Part shown: piece after piece, positions 2,705-33,460 of the stretch
Layout: each line of letters begins with the position of its first letter
Numbering within the stretch: the first letter of the stretch is position 1
Source: a virus
Length of the DNA stretch: 40,200 nucleotides
IMG/VR virus record: IMGVR_UViG_3300025655_000093
Span: 1 to 40,200 of that record
Strand: one strand, 5' to 3'
Notes under the pieces: model-generated
The model's database searches: none
Told to the model about the DNA's origin: nothing
Seen by the model: only the letters and a program-made list of their open reading frames with translations
Position numbers and translations under genes: made by a program

Positions 2705-2778
2705 GGGGTGCAGCCGCACCAACGGGGCACGGCTGTTCAGTTTCCAGCAGAAGGAAACCATAAAAACTTCTGCTCCCC
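2705..2778 (+). ncRNA. candidate H-type pseudoknot / cis-regulatory RNA
   Basis: On the plus strand GTTTC (2740-2744) pairs with GAAAC (2754-2758), and the enclosed AGCAGAAG (2746-2753) pairs perfectly over 8 bp with CTTCTGCT (2767-2774). The connecting loop CATAAAAA is A-rich. This is the order of an H-type pseudoknot. GGGG (2705-2708) can close the whole with CCCC (2775-2778), and a GGTGC/GCACC hairpin or the alternative CAGCCG/CGGCTG stem precedes it. It sits 67 bp before the gene at 2845 and could be a leader riboregulator; it matches no riboswitch class I recognise. Confidence 0.4.
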
Positions 2779-3224: not shown

Positions 3225-3499
3225 ACAAACTACTTGATCCACGCAAAGAACCAAACATCTGGCTTGCTGCCATGTTTGATCATCTTCTCCATGTGGGTGA
3301 TCAAGATTCTCTAGAGTCGCTGCGGTCCGGTTACTACCAACTCTGTAATGTTATCGAGCCTGGTCTCATTGATTCTTTGTTTCAGTCTTGGATTGAAGCA
3401 TATCTTCAAGGACTCCAGGATACGGATGGAACAGAAACGATTGAAAATACTGCTCGCTCACCAAGGGAGCTAGCGGATCTTCCGGAACCACTGGAATAA
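3221..3499 (+). CDS. hypothetical protein, 92 aa
   Basis: A 92-residue acidic protein starting MNKLLDPRKEPNIWLAAMFD, predicted helical, with an extended polar C-terminus rich in Thr, Glu and Pro. Its ATG overlaps the stop of the small membrane protein gene. Its last 134 bp overlap, in antiparallel orientation, the 3' end of the minus-strand gene 3366-3953. No family recognised. Confidence 0.6.
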   Translation: MNKLLDPRKEPNIWLAAMFDHLLHVGDQDSLESLRSGYYQLCNVIEPGLIDSLFQSWIEAYLQGLQDTDGTETIENTARSPRELADLPEPLE

Positions 3500-3953
3500 T
3501 TTTCCCCATCTTATAAAGTGGATCGCCTGCATAAGGCGGGCGATGCCACCAAAATATTTTGTTAAAGCAATCAGCTTCCCAGTCAGGATGTCGTGGTAGC
3601 CATCTTAGAAAAGCTCTAAACTGGGTATGCCGTCTTGCTGAAGTGGAATCTATATAGACTGCATCGCCAGGTTCTAATTGCCAACGCATCCGCAGCACAC
3701 AATCAAAGCCACGGATAATTGGTATTACCCCTGATTTACCAGTGATCTGTGTGTGTAGCAATCTGCTACGTTGATTTTTTTTCTTTTGATACCAATCATT
3801 TAGTTGACGTTTTGATTTGCTGACAGCAAAACCAAACTTCCACACCCAATGATTAGGCTCATACTCATATAAAGGAGTCAGAAAGACTTTACAATACTGA
3901 TCGTTGACTTTGAAAGTAGTAGTGCTACGCTTTCGACAGACTCTGTAGGTCAT
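3366..3953 (-). CDS. conserved hypothetical protein, 195 aa
   Basis: A 195-aa basic protein starting MTYRVCRKRSTTTFKVNDQY, with a KWKFGFAVSKSKRQLNDWYQ-like block, then a RMRWQLEPGD segment and a WHRPPYAGDP segment. The regular alternation of Lys/Arg and aromatic residues suggests a nucleic-acid-binding or repair-type fold, but I recognise no catalytic motif. Its start lies only 3 bp from that of the divergent gene at 3957, so at least one promoter must sit inside coding sequence. Its 3' end overlaps the plus-strand gene 3221-3499 by 134 bp. Confidence 0.65.
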   Translation of the reverse strand: MTYRVCRKRSTTTFKVNDQYCKVFLTPLYEYEPNHWVWKFGFAVSKSKRQLNDWYQKKKNQRSRLLHTQITGKSGVIPIIRGFDCVLRMRWQLEPGDAVYIDSTSARRHTQFRAFLRWLPRHPDWEADCFNKIFWWHRPPYAGDPLYKMGKIIPVVPEDPLAPLVSEQYFQSFLFHPYPGVLEDMLQSKTETKNQ

Positions 3954-33377: not shown

Positions 33378-33460
33378 GGGAGCGTGGCGGAATTGGTATG
33401 CGCTGCGGACTTAAAATCCGCTGGTCCTTGACCTTGTGGGTTCGAGTCCCACCGCTCCTA
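33378..33460 (+). tRNA. tRNA-Leu (anticodon TAA)
   Basis: All arms fold: acceptor GGGAGCG/CGCTCCT with one G-U pair at the end, D-stem GCG/CGC, anticodon stem GCGGA/TCCGC with loop CTTAAAA (anticodon TAA), a long class II variable arm (TGGTCCTTGACCTTG), T-stem GTGGG/CCCAC with loop TTCGAGT. The discriminator is A; CCA is not encoded. The long variable arm and the A73 fit leucine. It reads UUA codons. It is on the plus strand inside a minus-strand block and has no intron, unlike the tRNA-Leu(UAA) of many cyanobacteria. Confidence 0.95.

Follow-up and report, generated by a model that had tools for sequence, protein, structure and literature searches.

The window analysed here is the whole 40,200-base stretch of the virus record IMGVR_UViG_3300025655_000093 (GC 45%), which encodes a family-A DNA polymerase, a primase, endolysins and tail fibres. 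Among named phages, those of Roseobacter had the nearest polymerase (45%), Synechococcus phage S-EIV1 reached 43%, and the protein encoded at 3366-3953 on the minus strand matched seven records, all from Synechococcus phages, cyanophages or uncultured sources. The matches of these two proteins suggest that the lineage is cyanophage-like. A tRNA-Leu (TAA) gene is located at 33378-33460 on the plus strand.

The element under study is intergenic except for the first bases of an ORF starting at 2788, and relatives match that gene from 2845 onward. A sequence-only reading of the interval 2705-2778 had described a plus-strand H-type pseudoknot in front of the gene at 2845, in which a stem GTTTC/GAAAC (S1) crosses an 8-bp helix (S2) and GGGG/CCCC closes the fold. 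All letters named in that reading were located in the window at the places given for them:

2705-2708, plus-strand letters: GGGG, strand of helix P1
2740-2744, plus strand: GTTTC, 5' strand of S1, not conserved as a helix
2746-2753, plus-strand letters: AGCAGAAG, one side of the 8-bp match
2754-2758, plus-strand letters: GAAAC, 3' strand of S1
2759-2766, plus-strand letters: CATAAAAA, the proposed crossing loop
2767-2774, plus-strand letters: CTTCTGCT, other side of the 8-bp match
2775-2778, plus-strand letters: CCCC, strand of helix P1

On the minus strand the following features were assigned:

~2703-2806, minus: the RNA, ~105 nt (covariance model R1, 103.1 bits; 45-row alignment A3; minus-strand minimum-energy fold)
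2779-2805, minus: P4 hairpin, the first helix, 2801-2805 with 2779-2783; its loop carries one kissing strand (fold and covariation)
2788-2793, minus: kissing strand 1, AACCAU, partner 2756-2761 (covariation)
2775-2778, minus: P1 5' strand GGGG, partner 2705-2708 (covariation)
2746-2774, minus: P3 hairpin, 8-bp stem 2767-2774/2746-2753 (the match noted earlier), loop UUUUUAUGGUUUC (covariation)
2756-2761, minus: kissing strand 2, AUGGUU, in the P3 loop (covariation)
2711-2735, minus: P2 hairpin, third arm of the junction (covariation and fold)
2705-2708, minus: P1 3' strand CCCC (covariation)
2812-2817, minus: -10-like box TATTAT, overlapping TATAAT at 2811-2816 on the plus strand; direction ambiguous
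2836-2841, minus: -35-like TTGAGA, 18 nt from the -10-like box (sequence only, window alone)

Two further features lie nearby. At ~2305-2460 on the plus strand we noted a second conserved structured RNA block with a TATAAT just upstream (eight related copies, 40 pairs), for which no Rfam match was obtained at gathering score. Its plus reading contains 16 G.U against 2 A.C and its minus reading 7 against 7, which suggests that this block is on the plus strand, convergent with the kissing-loop RNA. Between the two RNAs, at ~2465-2626 on the minus strand, a script identified a 54-aa ORF; some relatives are without it or have inserted genes. The ORF resembles cyanobacterial DUF4278 proteins.

Copies, strand and fold of the RNA

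The gene at 2845 and the polymerase led to relatives in which the block ~2705-2805 was kept while the flanking insertions varied. Copies were collected by a pattern on the invariant loop (29 IMG/VR stretches) and then by a looser pattern (63 IMG/VR stretches). In 62 of these 63, two or all three of the variable kissing pairs are formed; the remaining stretch, L109, forms a single one and was dropped. The element thus occurs in 62 IMG/VR contigs besides the window. The looser pattern also gave 20 matches in genome_contigs, of which 19 were parsed (all but L064) and one, L071, is a copy. All three free kissing pairs were present in 44 of 51 distinct viral cores, two pairs in six and one pair in L109, as compared to 0 of the 18 other parsed bacterial-genome matches. 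These 18 and L109 were left out of alignment A1, which comprises 51 distinct copies, namely 50 viral ones including the window and L071. Removal of six near-duplicates (L014, L048, L053, L098, L110 and L116) resulted in 45 rows, both for the minus-strand alignment A2 and for the trimmed version A3. That the loop letters UUUUU, GUUUCC and AGNAGAAC do not vary is partly a product of the search patterns.

The covariance model R1, built from the phage copies including that of the window, scored the element in the window at 103.1 bits and the next best site at 10 bits. R1 yielded no convincing copy in seven phage records, comprising the isolates S-EIV1, S-SBP1, S-RIP2, S-SSM4, S-PM2 and Aphanizomenon phage CL131 as well as one fosmid phage. 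The three matches that it gave there, at 10.5-13.7 bits, were taken as chance, none having the U5 run or GUUUCC. Two of the three, in S-SBP1 and the fosmid phage, are similar to each other. With stricter filters, at which weak matches are lost, R1 gave one match in 386 Cyanobacteriota genomes, of 27 bits and at a CyVA-1 locus (see below), and in 59 genomes of one order only the Acidimicrobiales MAG with which the L071 contig is binned, the other 58 being matchless. The L071 contig is possibly a misbinned virus contig. An exact 29-nt pattern had 0 matches in viral_contigs. By blastn, the window region gave one 27-nt match in phages; L102 gave ten short matches in phages at E 4 and none in a second search; and the L104 region gave 559 records, of which the 8 listed match at thymidylate synthase genes.

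In RNA of the plus strand, wobble pairs are expected to appear as G.T. The plus orientation contained 59 A.C mismatch cells but only 14 G.T cells, eight of them at one position, whereas the minus orientation (alignment A2, 45 rows) contained 56 G.U and 16 A.C. By this asymmetry the minus strand is probably the RNA strand, and a plus-strand RNA was rejected on the excess of A.C over G.T, the minus reading being G.U-rich. The Atu_At1 and CyVA-1 matches in the window are both on the minus strand. Mildly opposing the minus-strand reading, the plus-strand stretch folds with a z of -2.84. An RNA of the minus strand would not be the leader of the plus-strand gene at 2845, as had been proposed.

The RNA probably starts near 2805, and its order is P4 followed by a three-way junction of P1, P3 and P2, with P4 and P1-P3 directly adjacent in the window. 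Across the 28 pairs in six helices of alignment A1, 92.7% of the cells were paired and double changes occurred in 23 of 28 pairs, counts that overstate independence since the rows are mutually related. The covariation score was 0.607 as compared to 0.175 for shuffled and at most 0.135 for slid alignments; in A3 the corresponding values were 94.4% paired and 0.661 against 0.195 and at most 0.154. Among the individual helices, the P3 stem was 92.9% paired with 7 of 8 pairs double-changed in some copy (A1, 51 copies) and 96.4% paired in A3. P4 has five pairs in the fold, and the four inner ones that were counted were 95.6% (A1) and 97.2% (A3) paired, all four being double-changed. For P1, with three pairs counted, the values were 89.5% with double changes in two of three (A1) and 96.3% (A3). 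The two helices of P2 were 85.4% and 93.1% paired (A1). P4, P1, P3 and P2 all appear when the minus strand is folded to minimum energy; the energy reached is unexceptional (z -1.57), being equalled or bettered by 19 of 200 shuffles.

The 6-bp kissing helix between the P3 and P4 loops was 98.0% paired in 51 rows, with 78 double-change cells against 28.5 in shuffles, all of which are carried by three free pairs, the AAC/GUU half being set by the search pattern. Taken alone, the three free pairs were not above shuffles in two of five measures (3 pairs against 2.6; 7 further types against 8.0). The supported pseudoknot pairs 2756-2761 with 2788-2793, partly beyond the interval described earlier. 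The GTTTC/GAAAC stem, in contrast, was paired in 63.5% of cells, which is the shuffled level, had 0 double changes, and formed all five pairs in one of 51 rows, the window itself. Therefore the S1-S2-S1-S2 order on the plus strand is peculiar to the window sequence.

What had been read from the letters is accordingly retained in part. The closing helix GGGG/CCCC (P1) and the 8-bp helix S2 both have compensatory changes across the 51 distinct copies, and S1 has none. The locus does hold a conserved structured RNA with a pseudoknot; its H-type topology, for which S1 would be the partner stem, was not borne out. The 8-bp match had also been credited with a low chance probability. Alone it is only mildly unusual, as at least one such inverted repeat occurred in 97 of 3000 dinucleotide shuffles of a 150-nt segment, and it gains its significance through conservation. 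The whole window contained 21 8-bp inverted repeats, as compared to 6-20 in 10 shuffles.

Relation to CyVA-1, Atu_At1 and other known RNAs

Neither the window's copy of the element nor the copies in 16 other loci had an Rfam match at gathering score. Below it, two bacterial sRNAs were found. CyVA-1 (RF02965), a cyanobacterial sRNA, matched the window over P4 at 17.5 bits (gathering 41.4), with model positions 41-65 only. In five other loci it aligned over its full model length in two, also below gathering (L102, 27.3 bits; L085, 21.1 bits), and three were matchless. Atu_At1 (RF02496) matched 2711-2809 at 18.3 bits (gathering 60). In the reverse direction, R1 detected 10 of 26 CyVA-1 loci (the set without L131 and L133) at E <= 0.001, with a best score of 30.1 bits, the rest being weaker or limited to P3, with none in L153; of nine Atu_At1 loci it recovered eight at E < 1, including six with E below 0.01.

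CyVA-1 was above its cutoff in 27 of 386 Cyanobacteriota genomes, some with several copies, and no CyVA-1 locus was found in plasmids. Two pairs of matches, L127/L154 and L129/L155, lie ~726 and 240 bases apart, in one genome each. Like the phage RNA, CyVA-1 has a 5' hairpin, with loop GAAGGAGARCNNN. The hairpin with the CyVA-1 loop GAAGGAGAaCGACGUCA has its counterpart in the window, where the loop GAAGAAGAACCAUGUCA aligns to model positions 41-65 and differs by four letters, one substituting A for G within the purine run and three in or beside the kissing triplet. The Rfam model is 77 nt long and its printed structure is without kissing pairs. Downstream of the model's end in the cyanobacterial loci, a U5-loop hairpin (A2) complements the first GAAGGAG loop (B1) in a covarying manner, as in the phage RNA, and is followed by an arm (B2) that complements the loop of hairpin A1. 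Compared with the phage RNA, CyVA-1 seems to have an extra 5' half, made up of an outer helix and hairpin A1, and a second kissing helix, A1/B2. This 5' half is outside the match in the window (model positions 41-65), and 33 of 45 copies have a -10-like box no more than 22 nt upstream of P4, but in L102 and L085 the model aligns weakly over its full length, the 5' half included.

Among 24 distinct loop sets (the second L141 match was dropped and L153 yields nothing), B1/A2 formed 139 of 144 pairs, against a mean of 122.1 in shuffles, none of 5000 reaching the observed count. A1/B2 formed 125 of 144 (shuffled mean 114.1; 0 of 5000 as high), a count lowered by A1 loops that, by reading, are misframed in L128, L134, L145 and L150 and were kept in. 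As within-half controls, B1/A1 gave 105 against 105.5 and B2/A2 120 against 116.3, the latter with 81 of 5000 as high and therefore not clean. By cmscan, the CyVA-1 model aligned again to the second half of L135 at 30.0 bits. Full-length CyVA-1 thus appears to consist of two homologous halves with two reciprocal kissing helices, as would result from an internal duplication, and the Rfam model apparently represents no more than the first half of a ~200-nt RNA (L126-L152; length by eye). Around the 15 of 28 CyVA-1 loci parsed (L128, L130, L131, L137, L143, L144, L146-L149 and L151-L153 being unparsed), the commonest neighbour was one ~230-aa family, in five of 15, which by eye is membrane-protein-like. 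The cyanobacterial loop letters AAGGAG brought up Shine-Dalgarno mimicry and CsrA-type GGA binding; both were rejected because the phage loop, GAAGAAG, is by eye without the motif.

Atu_At1, an sRNA of Rhizobiales, resembles the phage RNA in its weak collinear match on the same strand and in having a hairpin and a U5-loop hairpin, likewise ordered and with loops that complement each other. Its kissing strands were read by script as AACCGG/CCGGUU in seven loops of nine loci, all 6/6 paired, and by eye as AGCGGA/UCCGCU (L171) and AACGGA/UCCGUU (L172), which are compensated changes. Here, too, the structure printed in Rfam is without the kissing helix. Unlike in the phage RNA, the purine-rich GAAGNAG stretch is absent by eye. 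The Atu_At1 consensus, searched in the plasmid collection only, matched 226 plasmid records by blastn; for 89 the match extends across 80% or more of the query, and the weakest listed look like chance. Neighbours vary among the CyVA-1 and Atu_At1 loci read. By score, the phage RNA is a member of neither family; weak scores and shared architecture support, but do not prove, that it is related to both.

Other RNAs were compared as well. H-type pseudoknot riboswitches (preQ1, SAM-II) and frameshift elements pair a loop with a distal strand. In the element, by contrast, two hairpin loops kiss beside a three-way junction, and it has no Rfam match and no constant gene in cis. The phi29 pRNA is a structured RNA with loop-loop contacts. 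Such contacts are shared with the element by this RNA and by GOLLD, ROOL and OLE, without a match at Rfam gathering score. Homo-oligomers are reported for GOLLD, ROOL and OLE (PMC12286853). The wcaG, manA, PhotoRC-II and glutamine riboswitch RNAs are, like the element, structured RNAs of cyanophages and are described as cis-regulatory (PMC2864571, PMC9964418); none matches the element in the window or the 16 other loci. Two element-carrying phage contigs contain a Glutamine-II riboswitch match above gathering (L104:5736-5788 and L115:4228-4279, minus), and a third has three successive group-I-intron-like matches (L092:8822-10088; 47.3, 41.7 and 35.7 bits; gathering 50). In the literature covered on CyVA-1, Atu_At1 and phage structured RNAs (including the accessible parts of PMC7002113, PMC2864571 and PMC9964418, with few subscription journals and no bioRxiv), we found neither a description of the element nor a function of CyVA-1 or Atu_At1.

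Putative transcription unit, neighbours and likely role

Of 45 loci, 33 have a TATAAT-like hexamer (at least 5/6) in the 22 nt immediately 5' of the RNA; the corresponding counts are 10 for the sequence further upstream and 13 for that downstream. The hexamer is almost a palindrome, with an antisense match too in 31 of 45 loci, and thus it does not settle the direction and may serve a divergent gene. In six loci, the upstream stretch matches ATAAATA at 6/7 or better, which we take to resemble the late promoter of T4-like phages. By eye, no 3' terminator was seen in the window. A DNA-polymerase cluster surrounds the RNA in 29 of 45 loci and different gene sets do so in the others, with no single gene family always adjoining it. 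By eye, LAGLIDADG-like genes adjoin the RNA in L042 and L092.

We consider it most likely, with a probability of roughly 0.74, that ~2703-2806 is a minus-strand small noncoding RNA gene common to many phages, with a kissing-loop fold, its own transcription, action in trans on a host partner, and CyVA-1 and Atu_At1 as kin. The 5' hairpin P4, the three-way junction and the 6-bp kiss between the P4 and P3 loops are shown by covariation. The upstream box and the independence of neighbouring genes suggest that the RNA would be transcribed as its own unit.

A variant compatible with this reading, which we regard as somewhat unlikely, is that the kissing helix is intermolecular and produces dimers or rings. 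Full-length CyVA-1, with its two halves and reciprocal kissing helices, resembles a fused dimer, and GOLLD, ROOL and OLE are reported to form homo-oligomers (PMC12286853). However, P4 adjoins P1-P3 in the window, so an intramolecular contact is possible as well, and covariation is blind to the difference.

A cis-acting leader or riboswitch for a minus-strand gene on the 3' side, in the window the 54-aa DUF4278-like ORF, is unlikely. In 22 of 45 loci, among them L045 with a DUF4278-like ORF, the RNA shares its strand with the first ORF on its 3' side, and L052 has psbA further on (names by eye). An opposite-strand ORF, however, comes first in another 22 (one locus has none), close relatives have exchanged or lost the 3' neighbour and retained the RNA, no gene family is constantly next to it, and the element in the window is without an Rfam riboswitch match. 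The even split of the 3' ORFs argues for a probably trans-acting RNA rather than a riboswitch or a frameshift site, both of which the sequence-only reading had brought into consideration. A frameshift element is also improbable as the element is intergenic except for the unconserved start of the ORF at 2788.

Still less probable is a divergent-promoter region whose fold acts as DNA or plus-strand RNA on the gene at 2845. The perfect TATAAT at 2811-2816 on the plus strand lies upstream of that gene, and the plus-strand fold has the z of -2.84 given above, but the wobble asymmetry favours a minus-strand RNA and 19 of the 44 loci that could be scored have their closest 5' ORF on the same strand as the RNA, so that a divergent gene is not general. 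The plus-strand H-type pseudoknot with GTTTC/GAAAC crossing AGCAGAAG/CTTCTGCT is hardly credible, for its complementarity is perfect in the window but complete in one of 51 copies, does not covary and runs contrary to the strand evidence.

The preferred reading is therefore that of a probably free-standing small RNA with no fixed cis partner. It may act in trans, and its kissed fold would leave purine-rich and U-rich stretches unpaired and open to a partner, which would be host-encoded, since no partner gene travels with the RNA. Ancestry is probably shared with the bacterial sRNAs CyVA-1 and Atu_At1, which is supported, not proven, and given this probable kinship the most likely role would be the use of a host-type RNA by the phage during infection. 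More tentatively, one superfamily of kissing-loop RNAs may extend across phages, rhizobial plasmids and some cyanobacterial chromosomes and target a host component that is widely conserved; phages might then carry a streamlined half of the two-half bacterial RNA, mimicking the host RNA or serving as its decoy and possibly assembling by loop-loop contacts.

An RNA family supported by covariation would thus unite two Rfam sRNAs in one architecture with a tertiary contact that is missing from both printed structures, and the Rfam models of CyVA-1 and Atu_At1 may need revision. During infection, the phage RNA should meet the same partner as the bacterial RNA has in a cyanobacterium or a rhizobium.
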